Assembly (NCBI GenBank): GCA_024681175.1
Contig: JAILBI010000081.1
Span: 1-7,187, forward strand
Origin: Acholeplasmatales bacterium
GTDB lineage: Bacteria > Bacillota_I > Bacilli_A > Acholeplasmatales > Anaeroplasmataceae
Length of the DNA: 7,187 nucleotides
Direction of reading: 5' to 3'
The notes under the pieces were generated by a model, which ran no database searches, was not told the origin of the DNA, and was given only the letters and a program-made list of their open reading frames with translations. Below are positions 1-7,187 of this stretch, piece by piece (position 1 is the stretch's first letter; every line of letters begins with the position of its first letter). A program made the translations under genes and the position numbers.

Positions 1-811
1 CATTATATAAATTTTTATTATAAAGCTCTAATGTAGGGAATAAGAAATATGATAATAATCCTAATAATATTATTACTGCTGATATGGTAAATATTAATGT
101 TGTTTTATCTTTAAATGATTTATATATATTTTTAAAATAAAAACATAAATAAATACCACCTGCAGCATATGAATATAATGCAGTTGCATTATGAGATAGA
201 TATAAAAATAATGCACCAAATATTATTTCTATAAATGGTTTTATTTTTAATTCCTTCATATGAACAAAATCATATAATCCTAAAAAGAATAAAGGAACAA
301 ATGATATTGCCACTGCTTCTGCAATTGCGAAACGTTCAAATGCGCAAAATAATTTATAAGGCATGAATAAATATGTAGCACCTATCAAAATTGATAATGC
401 TCTATTTTTAGTCATTCTCATTCCTAATGTGTATGCAAACATACCAGATGAAAATATAGATAAGAAAATAACTATTTTAACACCTTGTAATAAAGAAACA
501 CCAAATGGTTCTAATACTACAGCTACTACGGCCATTGAGAAATGAGATAATGGTGAATAAAATAATCTTTTACCATATCCTAAACCAAATGAAAGATATG
601 ATGATATTACATTATATTCATTTCTTTTTAATGCCAAATAGATATCTTCTATTTGGGCATAATGGAATGTAGTGTCATCACCTCTTGGATATCCTTTATA
701 TAATAAAATATATCCTGATAACATAGATAAAGAAAATATAATTATCCATGGTAATACTACATACAAGATAGATATTAACTTATTAGTAATATTTCCTTTT
801 CTTAATTCCAT
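1..811 (-). CDS. Polytopic membrane protein, GT-C glycosyltransferase-like (partial, C-terminus beyond the window)
   Basis: An open frame of 270 codons runs without a stop from ATG at 811 to the left edge, so the C-terminal part is missing. A strong GGAGAAGG site lies directly upstream of the ATG. The first hydrophobic segment (about residues 13-37) is followed by an extracytoplasmic loop with GDDTTFHYAQIEDI at 44-57. An acidic pair followed by His after TM1 is typical of GT-C fold lipid-sugar-dependent glycosyltransferases. Next come GLGYGKRLFYSPLSHF (76-91), several membrane helices, and FERFAIAEA (158-166). That order (acidic loop, GYG..lFY.P, then R..A..E) resembles the integral membrane families annotated as PTPS-related (PF10131) or YfhO-like, an assignment made from memory. 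A role in decorating surface polysaccharide or teichoic acid is inference. It lies 45 nt downstream of proC and may share that transcript or use the promoter at 840-868. The membrane call is firm, the family call moderate. Confidence 0.8.
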   Translation of the reverse strand, partial: MELRKGNITNKLISILYVVLPWIIIFSLSMLSGYILLYKGYPRGDDTTFHYAQIEDIYLALKRNEYNVISSYLSFGLGYGKRLFYSPLSHFSMAVVAVVLEPFGVSLLQGVKIVIFLSIFSSGMFAYTLGMRMTKNRALSILIGATYLFMPYKLFCAFERFAIAEAVAISFVPLFFLGLYDFVHMKELKIKPFIEIIFGALFLYLSHNATALYSYAAGGIYLCFYFKNIYKSFKDKTTLIFTISAVIILLGLLSYFLFPTLELYNKNLYN

Positions 812-839
812 ACCTTCTCCACACAAAAAAACTAATAAT

Positions 840-868
840 ATTATATCATCAAAATATTATTTTTCTAA
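840..868 (-). promoter_or_regulatory. Possible internal promoter for the GT-C-like gene
   Basis: On the minus strand a perfect extended -10, TGATATAAT, lies at 848-840. A weak -35 (TTAGAA, 868-863) stands 17 nt upstream inside the end of proC. The predicted start near 833 would leave a leader of about 22 nt ending in the GGAGAAGG site. AT-rich sequence makes chance matches common, but the TGn extension raises the odds. Confidence 0.4.
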
Positions 869-1648
869 TTCTTTTCCTCTATTTGCACATTTTTCTGATG
901 CTTCATATACAATATCATCTAATTTCTTATCATCAAATACATATACACCTTCAATAGTTGTACCCTTATATGAACATACATCATTAATTAATGTATCTAA
1001 ATCCTTAGGTGATGAATTTAATAATGTCGCACAACCAAGTGTTGCATCTGCAAGCATTTTTCTTGCATCATTTTCATCTATTCCATTCTTTTTAGCATAT
1101 CTTACAAATGATCTAATAAAATACCAAATATATGCAGGATATGAACCATTTAGTGGTAATAATATATTTATTTTATCTTCAGATACTTCTGTAACTGAGC
1201 CAATAGATTCAAACATTGATCTTGCAAAAGCTAAATTAGCCTTAGATACATTATTTGAATGAGCCATTGTAGATACTGCCATATTGATTTGAGCACCTAA
1301 ATTTGGCATGAATCTTACAACCTCTAATTCATTACCTAATGATTTTTGTAAATATGAAATTGTAATACCTGCCGCAATTGTAATTAAAAGATTAGGCTTT
1401 TTATTTGAATCTTTTAATTTTTCCATAACCTCAGGAAATTGTTGAGGCTTTATTGCAAATAATACTATTTCACTATTTTGATAAACATCAAGCTCATCTT
1501 TAGCTAAGACAAAGCCTCCATTTAAAATATCTTCTTTATTTAATGAATATATAATAATATCTTTTCTTTCTATTTTTTTAGATTCAATTAATCCATTAAT
1601 AATTGAACCACCCATTTTTCCAAATCCTAATAATCCAAGTTTATACAT
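857..1648 (-). CDS. proC: Pyrroline-5-carboxylate reductase (ProC)
   Basis: This 263-residue protein has about the usual ProC length. ProC catalyses the last step of proline synthesis, NAD(P)H-dependent reduction of 1-pyrroline-5-carboxylate to proline, in the cytoplasm. The N-terminal Rossmann fold shows LGFGKMGGSIINGL (7-20), where GxGxMG binds the dinucleotide, then FAIKPQQ (64-70), which matches the family AvKPq motif. VVRFMPN (110-116) is the conserved hinge. The C-terminal dimerisation and substrate domain has NGSYPAY (167-173) for the family GSGPAY, and SYKGTT (226-231) for SPGGTT. These substitutions make it a somewhat divergent member, but the MPN, PAY and GTT cores are present. The ATG at 1648 is preceded by AAAGGAGA at 1653-1660. 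It sits 49 nt after the DUF1963 gene with no terminator between, so co-transcription is likely. No proA or proB is visible. Confidence 0.94.
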   Translation of the reverse strand: MYKLGLLGFGKMGGSIINGLIESKKIERKDIIIYSLNKEDILNGGFVLAKDELDVYQNSEIVLFAIKPQQFPEVMEKLKDSNKKPNLLITIAAGITISYLQKSLGNELEVVRFMPNLGAQINMAVSTMAHSNNVSKANLAFARSMFESIGSVTEVSEDKINILLPLNGSYPAYIWYFIRSFVRYAKKNGIDENDARKMLADATLGCATLLNSSPKDLDTLINDVCSYKGTTIEGVYVFDDKKLDDIVYEASEKCANRGKELEK

Positions 1649-1697
1649 AATATCTCCTTTATTTGATATACAAATATAATTAACCTATTTTTATTTT

Positions 1698-2390
1698 CTA
1701 TGTTGTTTCAAGATTAATTTTAACATCAGTAAAATCTAATTTTTCAAGTGCTTCATTAGACATATAGAATTGAAGGAAGCCATCATCTCCCCACATATAA
1801 TCATCGCCACTTTCAAGTTGAAGTATCTGACTTTCATTGTCTTGAAGATAACTTGATTGGAATATTTGAGGATAACCACCTAAAAAACCATAATCAGTTT
1901 CAATGAAATGATAGTTATCAAAATATTCATCTTGAATATCTTCATCAGCATCCTCTATATATTCATATAAATCACTAAATTCTTCATGGTTAGGATACAT
2001 CTTGATCTTATTTACATTGAAATATTTCTCTTCATATGTCTTTGTATCAGATTCTTCTTCATGTAAATTATCAGTTCCTTCATTTACATATATAACCTCG
2101 TAATGCTCACCTTTTTCTAAAGGATAATTTGAATTAATTACATCATCATCAAGGAAGATATATAAAATACCTGATGATGGTAAATATTTCACTTTCTTAT
2201 CAGCATTAACCTCACCAAAATTAACCTGCATAAAAAATGGAATTTTTTCACCATTTGAAATAGGCCAACTAAAATTTGTAGGAACAAGTGGATTACCACC
2301 GATTTTAGTTGTTGTTTCAGATTCATTTTCTACTAATTCAAATGAATCTTTAGCATATTTTTCAATTAATTTTTTATTTAATTTCCCCAT
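1698..2390 (-). CDS. DUF1963 / YwqG-like cytoplasmic protein
   Basis: This 230-residue acidic soluble protein has no signal peptide or membrane segment. It has the layout of the DUF1963 (YwqG-like) family: KIGGNPLVPTNFSWP at 29-43, then FFMQVNFGEV at 52-61, a beta strand GILYIFLDDD at 74-83, LGGYPQIFQ at 170-178, and near the end WGDDGFLQFYM at 200-210 followed by LDFTDVKI. These correspond to the family pattern of GG.P..P, QinL, GyPq.iQ and wGD.G...f. The molecular function of this family is not known to me. Residues 105-160 are unusually rich in Asp, Glu and Tyr. The start at 2390 follows GCGGAGG with suitable spacing. The gene is first in a probable transcript with proC and the GT-C-like gene. 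The family call is good; no function is proposed. Confidence 0.87.
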   Translation of the reverse strand: MGKLNKKLIEKYAKDSFELVENESETTTKIGGNPLVPTNFSWPISNGEKIPFFMQVNFGEVNADKKVKYLPSSGILYIFLDDDVINSNYPLEKGEHYEVIYVNEGTDNLHEEESDTKTYEEKYFNVNKIKMYPNHEEFSDLYEYIEDADEDIQDEYFDNYHFIETDYGFLGGYPQIFQSSYLQDNESQILQLESGDDYMWGDDGFLQFYMSNEALEKLDFTDVKINLETT

Positions 2391-2410
2391 TATAAAAGCC
2401 TCCGCTTTTT

Positions 2411-2439
2411 ATTATAATCTTTTAAATTAATAAATTAAA
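2411..2439 (-). promoter_or_regulatory. Weak candidate promoter for the DUF1963-proC transcript
   Basis: TATAAT lies at 2416-2411 on the minus strand, with a poor -35 (TTTAAT, 2439-2434) at 17-nt spacing. It follows the previous unit's terminator, where a promoter is expected. The predicted start near 2404 would almost touch the GGAGG ribosome site at 2403-2399, giving a very short leader. The true promoter may therefore lie further upstream in this A/T-rich gap. Confidence 0.3.
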
Positions 2440-2470
2440 TATAATAAATAATTTGTTTGATATTAAACAT

Positions 2471-2500
2471 AAAAAAAATTAGGCTCATCGAGCCTAATTT
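2471..2500 (-). terminator. Rho-independent terminator of the PurF-like operon
   Basis: A perfect 10-bp stem AAATTAGGCT/AGCCTAATTT (2476-2485 with 2491-2500) encloses a 5-nt loop. On the minus strand it runs into an uninterrupted tract of eight T (2478-2471). It starts three bases after the stop codon of the 252-residue membrane protein and separates that operon from the DUF1963-proC unit. Confidence 0.92.
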
Positions 2501-2502
2501 AA

Positions 2503-3261
2503 TTAATTATTATCGCCAAAATCAAGTTTAACTTCATCTTTTGATGATTCTTCAGCATCATTATTTTCTTGAGCTGGAGCTTCTTCTTTAACTTCTTCAT
2601 CCTTAGTGTCTTCAGCTACTTCTTCAGTTGCTTCTACATTTTCTTCAGCTACTTCTTCCTTAGCTTCTTCAACTTTTGCTTCTTCTTTAGCTTCAGTTTC
2701 AGGTAAGAATGAAATTAAACCAGCAACTAATGTAGAAATCATTAATACAGATGTAGCAATTACATATAATGAAACATATAATGCACCTTCATAATCATAT
2801 AAGAAATAATAACCCATTGTTGCAGTTACAGTAACGATTGTTAAATATGATGCTGCAGTAACGAATACTACCTTTGCCCACTTATAACCATCTTTTACCA
2901 TAAATACTGCAGAAACTGCAAATAAGATTACTGCTAAGAAATTTAATACTGGGTAATTGAATACTGGATCACTTGCACCATAGCCAGCTGCTAAATAATC
3001 TTCAGCAAATTGGCTCATATAAATTGCAAATACTGCATAAGAGATAAGTGGTAATAATTTAATAAGCTTATGATTATCTAATAAATTGATAATTAAACCA
3101 CCTAATGATACGATTGCGCCAACTAAGATAATTGATGTTTCTTTGCCTGTTACAACAGCTTCTGATTCCTCTACAGCCTTTGTTAATATAAATGATACTA
3201 CAAATAATACTAATGCTACGGCTGATAAAATAACTGATACTAATTTAGAATTTTTATTCAT
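2503..3261 (-). CDS. Uncharacterised six-helix membrane protein with acidic cytoplasmic tail
   Basis: I do not recognise this 252-residue protein. It has about six hydrophobic segments, near residues 7-27, 43-61, 67-83, 105-122, 129-150 and 161-186. The first ends in a short polar loop with EESEA, and GYKWAK at 125-130 is a basic cytoplasmic-type loop. From residue 188 to the end is a 65-residue low-complexity tail of Glu, Ala, Lys and Val (for example KEEAKVEEAKEEVAEENVEA), strongly acidic and probably helical or disordered. An even number of helices places both ends on the same side, presumably the cytoplasm. Its ATG overlaps the stop of the upstream 178-residue gene by 8 nt (ATGAATAA), and a GAGGAGAG site lies inside that gene, so translation is probably coupled. 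It is the third and last gene of the PurF-like operon and is followed at once by a terminator. That the frame is a real gene is firm; its function is unknown. Confidence 0.85.
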   Translation of the reverse strand: MNKNSKLVSVILSAVALVLFVVSFILTKAVEESEAVVTGKETSIILVGAIVSLGGLIINLLDNHKLIKLLPLISYAVFAIYMSQFAEDYLAAGYGASDPVFNYPVLNFLAVILFAVSAVFMVKDGYKWAKVVFVTAASYLTIVTVTATMGYYFLYDYEGALYVSLYVIATSVLMISTLVAGLISFLPETEAKEEAKVEEAKEEVAEENVEATEEVAEDTKDEEVKEEAPAQENNDAEESSKDEVKLDFGDNN

Positions 3262-3790
3262 TTTCGCTCTCCTCTTTCTTATTTTCGTTTTCTAAATCTT
3301 TTTTAAGTACAATAACAAATACTGTTACTACTTGAATTGCATGTGCAAATGCAACTATTCCTCCACCAAGTACAGGAACTACTGTAATTGCGGCGAATGT
3401 CAAAAATACAATATAGAATGCTAAATTGATGTATTTATGAGGTTTTAATTCTCTTAATAGGAATAATACAAATAATCCAGCGTCTAATGCTAAATAATAA
3501 ATAGAATTATAATTTCCTTGTGTTATTCCATATACATCACTAACAATACCACCTAATACTAGAAATGCAAAGATATAAAATAATAAATTATTATAATTTT
3601 TCTTTACAGAACCATATATTAGTAATGCTCCAGTTGTAATAAATGATGCCCAACCAATGATTGTAACAATCATTTGGTTAGTCATGTTATTATTAATAGC
3701 CCCAATAATACCTGGAAGTATTAATAATAATGATACAACTGTTACTGCGAAGATAATTAAGTTGAAGTTGTTTTTAATTTTTTCTTTCAT
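3254..3790 (-). CDS. Uncharacterised six-helix membrane protein, coupled to the PurF-like gene
   Basis: This 178-residue protein belongs to no family I can name. It has about six hydrophobic segments, near 11-31, 40-60, 68-88, 97-113, 120-140 and 143-162, and a short charged tail (KKDLENENKKEESENE). Size and topology are like its downstream neighbour, so the two could be distant paralogues or partners, but I see no convincing shared motif. I chose the ATG at 3790 (MKEKIKNN) rather than an in-frame ATG at 3820. The former forms a TAATG stop/start overlap with the PurF-like gene and has GGGAGAG just upstream, giving a basic N-terminus directly before helix 1. The 3820 start would place a hydrophobic decapeptide and 31 nt of overlap without a good ribosome site. 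The 3' end overlaps the next gene by 8 nt. Confidence 0.84.
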   Translation of the reverse strand: MKEKIKNNFNLIIFAVTVVSLLLILPGIIGAINNNMTNQMIVTIIGWASFITTGALLIYGSVKKNYNNLLFYIFAFLVLGGIVSDVYGITQGNYNSIYYLALDAGLFVLFLLRELKPHKYINLAFYIVFLTFAAITVVPVLGGGIVAFAHAIQVVTVFVIVLKKDLENENKKEESENE

Positions 3791-5196
3791 TATTCTCTCC
3801 CATCCCAACAATATGTACATAATTTATTTTCATCAATTTCAGTGGCCTTCTTAAGGTCATCTAAACGATTGAACTGAAGTGAAGTGAAATTCAACTGCTG
3901 ACGAATTTCTTCTACCATCTTTTTATATTTATCTCCATCTGGATTAATATATTCTTTGATAGTATCTGGATCTGTATTTCCTTCAAATTTCATTATTACT
4001 TTTCTTGTAATAAGTTCCATCTCACTATTAGATCTTGAGAAATTTAAATATTTACATCCATATAATAATGGTGGACAAGCTGATCTAATATGAACCTCTT
4101 TTGCACCGCTATCATATAAGAATTTAGTTGTTTCTCTCATTTGTGTTCCACGAACGATTGAATCATCTATTAATAATAATTTCTTATCTTTAATTAAATC
4201 ATGGACTGGTATAAGCTTCATATGTGCAATCAAATTACGTTTAATTTGAGTTGTAGGCATAAAGCTTCTTGGCCATGTAGGTGTATATTTAATAAATGGT
4301 CTTGAATATGGAATTCCAGATTCATTTGAATATCCAATTGCATGTGCAATACCTGAATCAGGTACACCTGCAACACAATCAGGCTTTGCAGAATCTCTTT
4401 GGGCAATGAATTTACCACAATTATATCTCATTCTTTCAACGCTTATTCCCTCATAAGCTGATGAAGGGTAACCATAATATACCCATAAGAATGTACAAAT
4501 TCTCATTTTATCACCAGGTGCAACAAGCATCTTAACACCTTCCTCAGGTGTAATGATATCTATTTCACCAGGTCCTAATTCTTTATAATCTACATATCCT
4601 AAATTTAAATATGAGAATGATTCAAATGCAACACAATATGCGCCATCCTTATGACCTATTACTGCAGGTGTTCTTCCATATTTATCTCTAGATACATAAA
4701 TACCTTTTTCATTTAATAATAATACTGTAATTGAACCATCTACAATTTCTTGAACATATCTTAAGCCATCAATTAAATTTTCTTTTTGATTGATAACTGA
4801 AGCAATAAGCTCAGTAGGATTAATATCTCCTCCACTCATTTCTAAGAAATGTGATGTTCCATGCTTAAATAATTTTTCTTCAATTTCTTTTACATTGTTA
4901 ATTCTTCCTACAGTAGTTATTGCATAAGTACCATGGTGAGATTTAACAATTAATGGTTGTGGTTCATAGTCTGATATACAGCCTATTCCCATCTTACCCT
5001 TCATTGAAGGTAAGTCTCCATCGAATTTTGTTCTAAATGGAGCATTTTCAATGTTATGTATTGACCTATTAAAACCATCTTCTCCCAAAACAGCCATACC
5101 AGCTCTTCTTGTTCCTAAATGAGAATGATAGTCTACACCAAAGAATAGATCGATTACACAATCAGTTTTTGATACGACACCGAAAAAACCACTCAT
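3790..5196 (-). CDS. PurF-family amidophosphoribosyltransferase homologue lacking the glutaminase nucleophile
   Basis: At 468 residues this has normal PurF length, and pipelines would label it purF. The C-terminal phosphoribosyltransferase half is well conserved: GVPDSGIAHAIGY at 277-289, the SFMPTTQIKR segment at 311-320, and the PRPP loop LLLIDDSIVRGTQ at 340-352. The cysteines that bind 4Fe-4S in Bacillus PurF have counterparts at C234, C381 and the C460/C463 pair. In contrast the Ntn-glutaminase half is degenerate. It begins MSGFFG where PurF matures to CGxFG. The Arg-bearing RYAT stretch reads SDYE (75-78). The HNGNLVN oxyanion segment reads TVGRINN (95-101), with Val for Asn. Glutamine hydrolysis at this site is therefore doubtful, and use of free ammonia or a regulatory PRPP-binding role is inference. 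It leads an operon with two membrane proteins; no other purine gene is in view. A GAGGAGGA site lies about 10 nt before the ATG, slightly far. Confidence 0.9.
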   Translation of the reverse strand: MSGFFGVVSKTDCVIDLFFGVDYHSHLGTRRAGMAVLGEDGFNRSIHNIENAPFRTKFDGDLPSMKGKMGIGCISDYEPQPLIVKSHHGTYAITTVGRINNVKEIEEKLFKHGTSHFLEMSGGDINPTELIASVINQKENLIDGLRYVQEIVDGSITVLLLNEKGIYVSRDKYGRTPAVIGHKDGAYCVAFESFSYLNLGYVDYKELGPGEIDIITPEEGVKMLVAPGDKMRICTFLWVYYGYPSSAYEGISVERMRYNCGKFIAQRDSAKPDCVAGVPDSGIAHAIGYSNESGIPYSRPFIKYTPTWPRSFMPTTQIKRNLIAHMKLIPVHDLIKDKKLLLIDDSIVRGTQMRETTKFLYDSGAKEVHIRSACPPLLYGCKYLNFSRSNSEMELITRKVIMKFEGNTDPDTIKEYINPDGDKYKKMVEEIRQQLNFTSLQFNRLDDLKKATEIDENKLCTYCWDGRE

Positions 5197-5206
5197 TTTC
5201 GTTTTG

Positions 5207-5214
5207 TCCTCCTC
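5207..5214 (-). promoter_or_regulatory. Ribosome binding site of the PurF-like gene
   Basis: GAGGAGGA on the minus strand is a near-perfect anti-SD match, 10 nt before the ATG at 5196. The spacing is longer than the usual 5-9. It supports the start that yields MSGFFG, and hence the absence of an N-terminal Cys. Confidence 0.75.
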
Positions 5215-5235
5215 GTATTAAAAAATACATTTTAT

Positions 5236-5264
5236 ATTATACAATGTTTTTGAAAGAAAAAAAA
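5236..5264 (-). promoter_or_regulatory. Probable promoter of the PurF-like operon (-10 only)
   Basis: A consensus TATAAT lies at 5241-5236 on the minus strand, just downstream of the rplS terminator and about 40 nt before the start codon. The hexamer at the -35 position (5264-5259) is only TTTTTT, part of the terminator's T tract. Either the promoter is weak or relies on an activator, or the operon is partly read through from rplS. Confidence 0.45.
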
Positions 5265-5284
5265 GACAATTTGCATTGCCTTTT
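5257..5284 (-). terminator. Rho-independent terminator after rplS
   Basis: On the minus strand AAAAGGCAAT and ATTGTCTTTT (5284-5275 with 5270-5261) pair over 10 bp with one G-U wobble. They close a GCAA loop (a GNRA tetraloop) and run into eight T. On the plus strand the wobble becomes an A/C mismatch, so the element is built for minus-strand transcripts. Confidence 0.85.
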
Positions 5285-5285
5285 A

Positions 5286-5302
5286 AAAGTCAAGTTGACT
5301 TT
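5286..5302. repeat. 17-nt palindrome between rplS and its terminator
   Basis: AAAGTCAA and TTGACTTT are perfect inverted arms around a single central base, starting 4 nt after the rplS stop codon. As RNA it could fold with 6 bp and a 5-nt loop, but it has no T tract of its own. Each arm contains TTGACT, like a -35 box. Role unknown; it may be a transcript-end stabiliser or a protein site. Confidence 0.5.
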
Positions 5303-5306
5303 ATAA

Positions 5307-5663
5307 TTATCGTCTTTCGTCGATTCTTGCAGCTTTCTTAGATAATGTACGGATATAGCCGAGCTTAGCACGTCTAACCTTACCTTTTCTAACTACGTCA
5401 ATATGATCAATGATTGGTGAATGAAGTGGGAATGTTCTTTCTACACCGATACCATAAGAAATTTTTCTTACAGTGAAAGATTCAGAAATTCCAGCACCTC
5501 TCATCTTCATTACAAGTCCTTCAAATACTTGGATACGATGAGTGTCGCCTTCAATAATCTTAACGTATACCTTTACGTTGTCGCCAGGACGGAACTCTGG
5601 ACGATTTTGTAAATATTCAGCAGTAATTTCATTAATTAATGCTTGTCCTTTTACATTTGCCAT
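5307..5663 (-). CDS. rplS: 50S ribosomal protein L19 (bL19)
   Basis: This 118-residue protein has the normal length for bL19, which sits at the interface of the 30S and 50S subunits. The match to Bacillus L19 extends over the whole protein: [16 protein letters not shown] (24-39), [14 protein letters not shown] (43-56), [25 protein letters not shown] with its very conserved [12 protein letters not shown] core (59-83), [16 protein letters not shown] (90-105) and the end KKAARIDE. I chose the ATG at 5663 (MANVKGQ). The same frame opens further upstream at a TTG (5687), but that would include the ribosome binding site and the leader stem. In most Bacillota rplS closes the rpsP-rimM-trmD-rplS operon; here it stands alone with its own promoter, leader and terminator. 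It is probably autoregulated through the leader upstream. Confidence 0.98.
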
Positions 5664-5672
5664 AAAGTAATA

Positions 5673-5680
5673 TCTCCTCA
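5673..5680 (-). promoter_or_regulatory. Ribosome binding site that fixes the rplS start
   Basis: TGAGGAGA on the minus strand lies 9 nt before the ATG at 5663. It begins 3 nt after the right arm of the leader stem. It lies inside the frame of the alternative TTG start at 5687, which argues against that start. Confidence 0.8.
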
Positions 5681-5683
5681 TTA

Positions 5684-5727
5684 ACAATATTCATAGCCAT
5701 TATAATTCCTTGCTAGCGGAATATTGT
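5684..5727 (-). ncRNA. Putative L19 leader (cis-regulatory RNA upstream of rplS)
   Basis: On the minus strand ACAATATTC (5727-5719) and GAATATTGT (5692-5684) pair perfectly over 9 bp. Within them TAGC (5715-5712) and GCTA (5697-5694) form an inner 4-bp stem with an asymmetric internal loop. The capping loop includes AAGGAATTATAAT. The structure ends 3 nt before the ribosome site of rplS, the place expected of the ribosomal protein L19 leader known in low-GC Gram-positives (Rfam L19_leader, recalled rather than searched). A competing hairpin, ATTCC (5722-5718) with GGAAT (5709-5705), would break the outer stem and might be a switch. A small hairpin CCTAT/ATAGG lies just upstream near 5733-5746. 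Confidence 0.72.
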
Positions 5728-5753
5728 GCTTTACCTATAAAATAGGCAAAATG

Positions 5754-5782
5754 ATTTTAACATAGAGATATTATTATTGCAA
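5754..5782 (-). promoter_or_regulatory. Promoter of rplS
   Basis: On the minus strand TTGCAA (5782-5777) and TAAAAT (5759-5754) are separated by exactly 17 nt, with a TGn extension (TGTTAAAAT). The predicted start near 5747 gives a leader of about 84 nt that contains the whole L19-leader fold. It lies directly after the preceding terminator. Confidence 0.75.
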
Positions 5783-5795
5783 GAAATATTTTGTT

Positions 5796-5831
5796 AAAAA
5801 ATAAATATCTTTGCGACGACGCAAAGATATT
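5796..5831 (-). terminator. Rho-independent terminator of the EIIC-like gene
   Basis: A perfect 12-bp stem AATATCTTTGCG/CGCAAAGATATT (5831-5820 with 5815-5804 on the minus strand) has a TCGT loop. It is followed by TATTTTTT. It lies 6 nt after the stop codon and insulates rplS from upstream transcription. Confidence 0.92.
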
Positions 5832-5837
5832 ATAATT

Positions 5838-7049
5838 TTATTCATTTTCTTCTTTATTATCTTCTAAAGCTATATCTTCATTTAATTCTTGTTTTGCTTC
5901 TTCTTTTAAATCTTCTTTTGCTAAAGCTTCATCATTAACATCTTCAACTTCAGCGTTATTATTATTTTCAGTTGCTGATGCTTCAGCCTTTCCTTCAGGT
6001 GTTGCTGATGCAAAATCATCAGAAGTTGCTAACGCAAAATCACCTTTTTGAATCCAACCAATTTTTCTAAATAATAAATCAAGACCAAATACTAAAGCAA
6101 TTGGAGCAACAACACAAATACCTAACACTTCAATTATTGCTAAAGGCTTATATCCCATTACATCAAATGTATCTAAAATACCAACAAGACCTGATGTACC
6201 CATACCTGCGCCAACTGAATCAGTTTTAAATTTAAATACATATGCAAATACGCCTAATATTGCTGATGCAATAATAGTAGGTAACCAAATAAGTGGCTTT
6301 TTAACAATATTTTTAAATTGGAGCATTGATGTACCAATACCAACAGCAATAACAGAACCAACCTTATTATCTCTTGCAGTATGTACAGCAAATCCTACCA
6401 TTTGTGTACAGCATCCAACTAATGCAGCTCCTGCAGCAAGTGGTGTATTACCAATTGCAATTGCAACACATATTGCAACACTTGAAATAGGTGCAGTTAG
6501 TGCCATACCAACAAGTACAGAAACAATAATACACATTAATAATGGTACAACATCAAATGAAGCTTCAATAACCTCACCAATACCTACAGTAATATAATGA
6601 ACATAATCAGCTACAAAGAATGAATAGAACATTGTACAAATTAAGCCAACAAGTGGTATTAATAAAATATCTACAGGTGTTTGTCTTCTCATTATTAATT
6701 TAATTGCAAAATATCCAACTAAAGATGCACAGTAGCAAGATAAAGGATCTGAGAATGTTTGCCAAACTCCTCCATCAATGAAAGAGAAAATTTGTGTTCC
6801 ACATGCACCACATACTGCAATAGTAACCATTCTAATACCTTTTTCCTTTAATGCGATTGCAACACCAAGACCTATACCAAAGCCCATTAAGCTTTGAACA
6901 TATTTTGCAAATGTACTTACATAATCACAATAAGGGATTTTGGAAATTAGATTTAATATTGTTCCAATAATTAAGGTTCCAAATAAACCAATTGCCATAC
7001 CATTTGTAGTATTTGCAATAAAGCTTCTAACCTTCTTAAAAGTATTCAT
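5838..7049 (-). CDS. PfoR-type PTS EIIC membrane protein (PTS_EIIC_2 family) with acidic C-terminal tail
   Basis: This 403-residue membrane protein has roughly ten hydrophobic segments between residues 12 and 326. It carries motifs of the stand-alone EIIC-like family PF13303/COG3641 (PfoR): FIANTTNGMAIGLFGTLIIG (10-29), LTAPISSVAI (184-193), PLAAGAALVGCCTQMVGFAV (203-222), GTSMLQFKNIVKKP (239-252) and GMGTSGLVGIL (282-292). The fold is that of sugar-PTS permease domains, but there is no EIIA or EIIB domain and none is encoded nearby. The substrate, and whether it uses PTS phosphorylation at all, is therefore unknown. The old regulator name PfoR is not regarded as reliable. Residues 335-403 form an extra Asp/Glu/Ala-rich tail that begins with repeats of the DFALAT/DFASAT type, beyond the usual family end. 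I chose ATG 7049 because GGAGG lies 5 nt upstream; an in-frame TTG at 7061 is part of that site. It is monocistronic, with its own promoter and terminator. Confidence 0.88.
   Translation of the reverse strand: MNTFKKVRSFIANTTNGMAIGLFGTLIIGTILNLISKIPYCDYVSTFAKYVQSLMGFGIGLGVAIALKEKGIRMVTIAVCGACGTQIFSFIDGGVWQTFSDPLSCYCASLVGYFAIKLIMRRQTPVDILLIPLVGLICTMFYSFFVADYVHYITVGIGEVIEASFDVVPLLMCIIVSVLVGMALTAPISSVAICVAIAIGNTPLAAGAALVGCCTQMVGFAVHTARDNKVGSVIAVGIGTSMLQFKNIVKKPLIWLPTIIASAILGVFAYVFKFKTDSVGAGMGTSGLVGILDTFDVMGYKPLAIIEVLGICVVAPIALVFGLDLLFRKIGWIQKGDFALATSDDFASATPEGKAEASATENNNNAEVEDVNDEALAKEDLKEEAKQELNEDIALEDNKEENE
5971..6042. repeat. Degenerate short repeat within the acidic tail of the EIIC-like gene
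   Basis: GTTGCTGATGC occurs at 5971 and 6001, and GTTGCTAACGC at 6025. The latter two copies extend to CAAAATCA (6001-6018 and 6025-6042). They encode the peptide repeats DFALAT, DFASAT and EASAT. This looks like slippage or duplication in a low-complexity tail rather than a functional DNA repeat. Confidence 0.5.
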
Positions 7050-7054
7050 AAATA

Positions 7055-7061
7055 CCTCCAA
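7055..7061 (-). promoter_or_regulatory. Ribosome binding site that fixes the EIIC-like start
   Basis: TTGGAGG on the minus strand ends 5 nt before the ATG at 7049. The upstream in-frame TTG is part of this site and so is unlikely to be used. Confidence 0.8.
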
Positions 7062-7075
7062 TATAAAAAATTTAA

Positions 7076-7096
7076 AATGATTATAATATAATCATT
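7076..7096. promoter_or_regulatory. Palindromic operator candidate over the EIIC-like gene's promoter
   Basis: Arms AATGATTATA and TATAATCATT are perfect inverted repeats about one central base. The element covers the whole -10 and half of the spacer of the promoter at 7080-7108. A dimeric repressor bound here would block RNA polymerase. The sequence is A/T-only in the core, so part of the symmetry could be chance, but 10 matching pairs including a G-C pair is more than background suggests. Confidence 0.5.
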
Positions 7097-7108
7097 CCTA
7101 TAAATCAA
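7080..7108 (-). promoter_or_regulatory. Promoter of the EIIC-like gene
   Basis: On the minus strand TTGATT (7108-7103) and a consensus TATAAT (7085-7080) are spaced by 17 nt. The predicted start near 7073 gives a short leader of about 24 nt carrying the TTGGAGG site. Confidence 0.7.
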
Positions 7109-7137
7109 TAAAATATTTAATTTTATAATTAAAGCAT

Positions 7138-7170
7138 AAAAAAAAATAGACAGAATCAAACGATTCTGTC
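7138..7170 (-). terminator. Rho-independent terminator of an upstream off-window gene
   Basis: A perfect 9-bp stem GACAGAATC/GATTCTGTC (7149-7157 with 7162-7170) has a 4-nt loop. It is followed on the minus strand by TA and nine T. A run of six T also follows on the plus strand (7174-7179), so it could stop transcripts in both directions. The gene it serves on the minus strand begins beyond the right edge. Confidence 0.85.
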
Positions 7171-7187
7171 ATGTTTTTTATAAAGCT

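Follow-up and report, generated by a model that had tools for sequence, protein, structure and literature searches.

In the textbook account, purine synthesis needs glutamine at its first committed step, and the locus described here raises the question of what a PurF homolog does once its machinery for using glutamine is gone. The window, by which we mean the whole analyzed stretch of 7,187 nt (contig JAILBI010000081.1, positions 1 to 7,187, assembly GCA_024681175.1, from an Acholeplasmatales bacterium), carries on its minus strand a gene for a 468-aa PurF-like protein without glutaminase residues (3790..5196), supported by its open reading frame (ORF), by homology and by predicted fold. We suggest that this protein, referred to below as Cys-less PurF, is probably a member of the PurF superfamily that needs no glutamine and makes 5-phosphoribosylamine (PRA) from phosphoribosyl pyrophosphate (PRPP) and free ammonia.

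As far as sequence and predicted structure tell, the window protein is a full-length PurF homolog that has lost its glutaminase machinery and retained its PRPP site. Its residues 3–392 are homologous to B. subtilis PurF (1ao0/1gph), and its predicted fold is that of PurF over the full length (AlphaFold/Foldseek/VIA; the VIA list of structural matches was used solely for the PurF match). As in the PurF superfamily, an N-terminal nucleophile amidotransferase domain is paired with a type I phosphoribosyltransferase domain. An AlphaFold comparison had been proposed in a sequence-only reading of this DNA, and it places residue 2 of the window protein in register with residue 1 of PurF. Against the NCBIfam model of canonical PurF (TIGR01134) the protein scores 183.8 bits, below the cut-off of 350. 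An insertion of about 25 residues precedes the C-terminal helix (residues ~400–425, 3922–3999) and has no counterpart in the canonical sequences displayed in the alignment.

The sequence-only reading had pointed to Ser at the position of the nucleophile Cys1 (MSGFFG), to SDYE and to Val in TVGRINN, and an alignment with 138 relatives and 52 canonical PurFs bears out all three departures. The relatives were chosen by BLAST score alone (152 loci, 138 unique; weakest relative 468 bits, strongest canonical protein 200 bits). An earlier set was selected for carrying the motifs SHLGT and DDSIVRGTQ, then reduced to sequences of <95% identity (145 to 120 relatives, 46 to 44 canonical), so that invariance at these two motifs is partly built into it by selection. 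Codon 2 (5191..5193; minus strand, as are all features below) encodes Ser at the Cys1 position according to both alignment and structural register. Most relatives have Gly there (Gly 129 and Ser 8 of 138, the remaining truncated ORF encoding Gly in the DNA), and Gly2 also dominates in a set of 240 fetched proteins (220 Gly and 16 Ser of the 236 that could be parsed). Canonical N-termini are displaced in the alignment by propeptides; a separate check gives the Cys motif in 52/52. Arg26, Arg73 and Asn101, which we take to be glutamine-binding and oxyanion residues of PurF, are likewise gone. DYHSHLGTRR (residues 22–31, 5104..5133) stands in place of the canonical ..LQHRGQE. and has Leu27 at the Arg26 position (Leu in 138/138 relatives versus Arg in 52/52 canonical). 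In SDYE (residues 75–78, 4963..4974) Arg73 is replaced by Ser75 (138/138 versus Arg in 50/52) and Tyr74 by Asp76 (138/138). The former oxyanion stretch HNGN reads TVGRINN (residues 95–101, 4894..4914), with Val in 122, Ile in 14 and Thr in 2 relatives at the position of Asn101 (Asn in 52/52 canonical). Moreover, the glutamine loop, measured from Tyr74 to the QP motif, is 8 residues shorter in the window and counts 3 residues in 138/138 relatives versus 11–12 in canonical PurF.

The phosphoribosyltransferase half tells the opposite story. Retention of the PRPP loop, of PDSG and of Cys234, Cys381, Cys460 and Cys463, also claimed from the sequence alone, holds in all or all but one of the 138 relatives at the positions checked, the final Thr of the PRPP loop excepted. 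The PDSG pyrophosphate loop (residues 279–282, 4351..4362) keeps D280 and S281 in 138/138, as do Lys303, Arg310 and Lys327. The flexible loop (residues 303–320, 4237..4290) retains Lys303, Arg310 and Arg320 (the last in 120/120 of the motif-chosen relatives) and has KYTPTW for KNRY. In the PRPP loop LLLIDDSIVRGTQ (residues 340–352, 4141..4179), D345, R349 and T351 are found in 138/138 and D344 in 137/138 relatives; the final Thr is Gln in all compared relatives. The four putative iron-sulfur (Fe-S) ligands, at the level of residues those of a Bacillus-type PurF, occur in all 138 relatives: Cys234 (4495..4497) and Cys381 (4054..4056), each also in 52/52 canonical proteins, and Cys460 and Cys463 (CTYC, 3808..3819), each in 51/52 canonical proteins, of which one ends early.

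Because Gly/Ser2, the Arg losses and the deletion are common to all 138 relatives, the glutaminase losses, as read from the alignment, mark a subfamily rather than local decay. Sequencing error is ruled out on the same ground, in line with the earlier argument from several independent changes. A hidden upstream start that could supply a Cys is ruled out by the clear ribosome-binding site GAGGAGG (5208..5214) read from the sequence 11 nt 5′ of the ATG of MSGFFG. We also considered Cys13 as an alternative nucleophile exposed by cleavage. It is near-invariant (109/120); however, Ala occupies the position in 10 and Ser in 1, including L212 from a genome without another PurF, and it is residue 2, not 13, that is first aligned to residue 1 of PurF chains in the structural match. 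A simple pseudogene is rejected in view of the open frame and strong conservation across phyla, and identity with GlmS in view of the GlmS-type matches being separate genes, mostly of 600–690 aa and ~80–120 bits.

How widespread is this subfamily? A scan with two subfamily peptides of a collection with one genome per species gave at least 593 loci, mostly with an MGGFFG start, as the sequence-only reading had anticipated in recalling GG-FFG proteins of other anaerobes; the best 80 are mostly titled Lachnospiraceae or other Clostridia. Two protein searches returned at least 7,998 and at least 8,000 matches, every one significant. Among the best 120 of each, identity is 77–94% and mostly 85–100%, respectively, the name is 'amidophosphoribosyltransferase' and the sources include Acholeplasmatales, Anaeroplasma and Parabacteroides; matches beyond these may include canonical PurF. 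Relatives were also found by tblastn in Peptoclostridium acidaminophilum (57% identity), Phocaeicola (51%), Parabacteroides (50%) and Bacteroides (48%). In class samples, carriers make up 9/120 genomes around G006 (Erysipelotrichaceae; class presumed Bacilli) and 45/147 around G005 (Eubacterium ruminantium; class presumed Clostridia), with the completeness threshold requested as 85 or 90% for both samples and for both family-wide searches discussed below. Whole-genome searches show a wide score gap between relatives (553–889 bits, one fragment at 349) and canonical PurF (≤193 bits). Two relatives are over-long, P0121 (661 aa) and P0219 (568 aa, with a PF07784 domain), and may be fusions or gene-calling errors.

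The phylogeny called for by the sequence-only reading separates the two groups. A very long branch with full SH-aLRT support sets canonical PurF apart from the other sequences among the 101 rows of the tree. The tree was made by a quick method, its program warned of long branches between groups, and its canonical rows are every second of 46. It takes in 22/24 rows from genomes with only the paralog and 50/56 from two-gene genomes; eight carriers (L207, L215, L238, L239, L240, L242, L246 and L248) were left out by the motif filter. The label 'paralogue-only' requires 16 changes on this tree, at least 9 of them forced by starred branches.

Genomes in which Cys-less PurF is the only PurF found are the most informative. 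There are 24 of them, and 22 have purD. In the presumed Bacilli, G031, G040, G109 and G149 have no PurF above the cut-off (0/4) and all have purD (4/4). In the presumed Clostridia sample, 15/45 carriers have no second PurF-like match; 0/15 have PurF above the cut-off and 14/15 have purD. The TIGR01134 search of these 19 genomes gave no match above the cut-off. A further set of 27 genomes, taken from 28 of the best 80 scan loci, contains 21 with PurF above the cut-off, one with a split gene (G017) and five with none, of which 4/5 have purD. The two without purD are G020, where purH is missing as well, and G291, in which the contig stops shortly after purM. The chance of at least 15/45 missing PurFs is P ~1e–7 at the purD gap rate of 1/15 and ~2e–5 at a rate of 10%. 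In two taxonomic families, each genome covered has the paralog as its only PurF (3/3 and 4/4, the fourth genome of the latter, G323, lying outside the PurF-model check); hence, assembly gaps in single genomes do not explain the missing PurF in these families. Since purH (TIGR00355) is above its cut-off in just 7/15 genomes, we relied on purD and on operons instead. In one sole-PurF genome (G196) the gene (L207) lies between a glmS-like gene and guaA and shows neither ATG nor GTG nor TTG where it should begin.

Gene order places Cys-less PurF within the purine pathway in several of these lineages. In 7/24 sole-PurF genomes it sits in the purF slot of a pur operon, in 5 of these 7 with a ZTP riboswitch before purE. 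G109 and G149 have the order purE-purM-purN-purH-purD-purL-Cys-less purF-guaB-GSIII-fhs-guaA with a divergent purC alongside (GSIII, glutamine synthetase III). G031 differs in lacking fhs (formate tetrahydrofolate ligase) and in having a short guaA-like ORF. G190, G222, G246 and G291 have purE-Cys-less purF-purM, the first three continuing to purN, purH and purD. Similar arrangements occur beside a second PurF encoded elsewhere: six two-PurF carriers have purE-(purC)-Cys-less purF-purM-purN-IMP cyclohydrolase-like. G289 has purE-purC-Cys-less purF-purM followed by the contig end, and G257 has purF and the Cys-less gene side by side within one operon. The ZTP riboswitch, a sensor of a purine-pathway intermediate, was found in 10 of 16 pur operons searched. 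In 9 of these it precedes the purE frame or lies at the frame's 5′ end (G109, G149, G031, G190, G222, G299, G213, G289 and G257), and in G205 it is inside the operon, ahead of the IMP cyclohydrolase gene. In G184 a purine riboswitch lies ahead of purE. The record MT836108.1 (L150), filed as 'Bacteriophage sp.', has purE-purC-PurF-like-purF-purM-purN; it is bacterial chromosome-like and probably misfiled.

PRA is the substrate of PurD, and free ammonia is plentiful in gut and rumen. We propose that the phosphoribosyltransferase half of Cys-less PurF would convert PRPP and free ammonia, its presumed nitrogen donor, to PRA, the product of the reaction that opens de novo purine synthesis, and that the former glutaminase half would be retained as a remodeled, non-hydrolytic domain. 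In species with two PurFs, Cys-less PurF would act as an ammonia-using isozyme beside the glutamine-using PurF; a regulatory role there may also be considered. According to PMC3261824, which cites Mei and Zalkin 1989, changing Cys1 of E. coli PurF to Ala or Ser abolishes the use of glutamine and leaves the use of ammonia. In Salmonella, according to PMC3485032, no PurF-independent route has supplied enough PRA for purine needs. PRA synthesis with ammonia is thus the economical reading, because the glutaminase residues are lost, the PRPP site and Fe-S cysteines are kept, sole-PurF lineages keep purD, operons hold the gene in the purF slot, and the literature on Cys1 mutants and PRA agrees. Between the functions offered by the sequence-only reading, free ammonia is therefore the favored one, whereas a role solely as a PRPP sensor fails for sole-PurF lineages, because Cys-less PurF is there the only PurF homolog found and occupies the purF slot of the pur operon. 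That reading had also taken being the only PurF of a purine prototroph as grounds for refutation. Among relatives the protein is indeed the only PurF found beside purD and other pur genes, but the argument was mis-aimed, as this situation favors an ammonia-using enzyme over a working glutaminase. We lean, with somewhat less assurance than for the activity itself, toward the broader proposal that a widespread natural PurF subfamily starts purine synthesis with free ammonia, that several anaerobic lineages have lost their glutamine-using PurF altogether, and that the rule of a glutamine amidotransferase always coming first would be false for bacteria.

Several observations weigh against ammonia-dependent PRA synthesis. 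The window copy has no pur neighbor, with rplS upstream and hydrophobic ORFs downstream. A core pur gene lies within four genes in only 12/45 presumed-Clostridia carriers, although about 2–3/45 would be expected (a rough figure assuming 14 pur genes among 1,800–2,500), and in 10 of the best 80 scan loci, 8 of which have purB directly upstream. In the G109, G149 and G031 stretches purB and purK were not seen. Neither riboswitch was found in 5/16 operons (G246, G291, G183, G182 and the MT836108 contig), and the riboswitch search of the window and 12 other loci gave tRNA only. Canonical PurF is present in 30/45 presumed-Clostridia carriers (26 by a second match among the matches listed, G205, G266, G290 and G315 by match count only), in 6/9 presumed-Bacilli carriers and in 21/27 genomes of the scan loci, plus one split. 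For single genomes such as G020, the absence of PurF may be an assembly gap. The peptidase gene pepT is directly downstream in each of the four records from a plasmid collection, one of Peptoclostridium and three of Bacteroidales and so from two phyla; a purine role does not explain this. Finally, Gln352 replaces the last Thr of the PRPP loop in 138/138 relatives (Thr in 52/52 canonical) and Thr307 replaces the Tyr of KNRY in 137/138; by alignment, Gln352 and the KYTPTW loop could mean another acceptor or product, with altered chemistry. Co-occurrence statistics point in both directions: canonical PurF is rarer in carriers of the presumed Clostridia (30/45 versus 85/102) and commoner in those of the presumed Bacilli (6/9 versus 26/111).

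The window's own species is probably of the two-PurF type, because the nearest genome found, G104, whose protein is 82% identical, has canonical PurF, purD and purH. G104 shares the order rplS-PurF-like gene-small ORF-ORF. In the window the small hydrophobic ORF has its start overlapping the stop codon of the PurF-like gene (TAATG, 3788–3792), and in G104 the first base of the next ORF is likewise the final base of the PurF-like gene (L163 9437); the two genes may be translationally coupled. The two proteins downstream in G104 are just 24% identical to those of the window. In the plasmid-collection records, pepT lies at 11574–12800 (L146), 11564–12787 (L147), 11464–12684 (L148) and 11513–12733 (L149), and gcvT comes after it in the three Bacteroidales. 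The circular-plasmid records L147 and L148 (NZ_OY725932.1 and NZ_OY725754.1) contain eno, pth, rplU and rpmA and may be chromosomal pieces. The gene for the large chain of carbamoyl phosphate synthase, a glutamine/ammonia enzyme, adjoins downstream in L052, L053 and L072 and upstream in L217 (carB).

The presence of canonical PurF in most carriers would also fit a catalytically silent or weak partner, or a PRPP/nucleotide sensor, that forms assemblies with canonical PurF or controls either that enzyme or the pathway in two-gene species. Either no gene or a single gene separates the two in L008, L023, L028, L030, L242 and L150, the former glutamine pocket has acquired new near-invariant residues, as expected of a new ligand site, and crenarchaeal PurF′ is likewise paired with PurF (PMC3261824). 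However, this cannot be the whole story where Cys-less PurF is the sole homolog found, and retention of the PRPP- and pyrophosphate-loop residues, last Thr excepted, speaks against a silent subunit; overall we regard this explanation as unlikely. Another possibility, which we find rather improbable, is that PRA is made with ammonia supplied by a separate docking glutaminase, as in split amidotransferases. The N-terminal domain is kept whole and is more conserved than in canonical PurF (mean majority frequency 0.74 versus 0.62), which could reflect a docking surface, and the glutamine enzymes GSIII, GuaA and PurL share the operon with the Cys-less gene in G109 and G149. Yet, besides pur genes, guaB, carB and pepT, no neighbor family (most without assigned identity) adjoins in more than 4 of 133 loci, and the positions aligned with Tyr74, Thr76, Tyr258 and Tyr329, which presumably line the ammonia channel of E. 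coli PurF, are replaced or deleted in the subfamily. To our knowledge, acting in trans has no precedent among class II amidotransferases.

A PRPP-dependent transferase with another acceptor and product, outside purine synthesis and drawn into some pur operons, would account for Gln352 and for Thr in place of the KNRY Tyr, as well as for the pepT and carB neighbors. On the other hand, sole-PurF lineages would then have no known source of PRA yet keep purD and the operon, and riboswitch control points to purines, which makes this explanation very improbable in our view. Ammonia-dependent PRA synthesis remains the reading we prefer. If it is correct, the nitrogen source implied by the 'amidophosphoribosyltransferase' label is wrong at no fewer than 593 loci of gut and rumen anaerobes, and metabolic models of carrier organisms are wrong at the PRA step. 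The subfamily would then be a natural amidotransferase that retained its synthase half after the glutaminase half died. Sole-PurF lineages offer a clean test, with no second enzyme interfering. Our search of open-access literature, with subscription papers and preprints outside its scope, found no account of a bacterial Cys-less PurF subfamily or of lineages relying on it alone.

Compared with known systems, Cys-less PurF is closest to canonical PurF (TIGR01134; the Fe-S enzyme of B. subtilis), with which it shares the predicted two-domain fold over the whole length, the PRPP loop DDSIVRGT, PDSG, the four Fe-S cysteines and, in several lineages, the operon slot. Unlike canonical PurF, it lacks Cys1, Arg26, Arg73, Tyr74 and Asn101, its glutamine loop is shorter by 8 and Gln is the last residue of its PRPP loop. 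Two relatives of asparagine synthetase B, beta-lactam synthetase and carbapenam synthetase, also have the class II amidotransferase fold, appear among the structural matches and have a dead glutaminase half, but differ in synthetase domain and product. The nearest precedent is crenarchaeal PurF′, which, according to PMC3261824, is also a PurF homolog without the N-terminal Cys and near pur genes. The same holds for our subfamily, with pur genes near in a minority of carriers and not in the window. The idea of a Cys-less PurF is thus already in print for archaea as a suggestion: the authors of that 2011 paper name an 'ammonia-dependent phosphoribosylpyrophosphate aminotransferase' as one possibility, which, if our reading is true, becomes testable in bacteria. 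Whereas each crenarchaeon holds both PurF and PurF′ according to the same paper, several bacterial lineages described here have the Cys-less form only.

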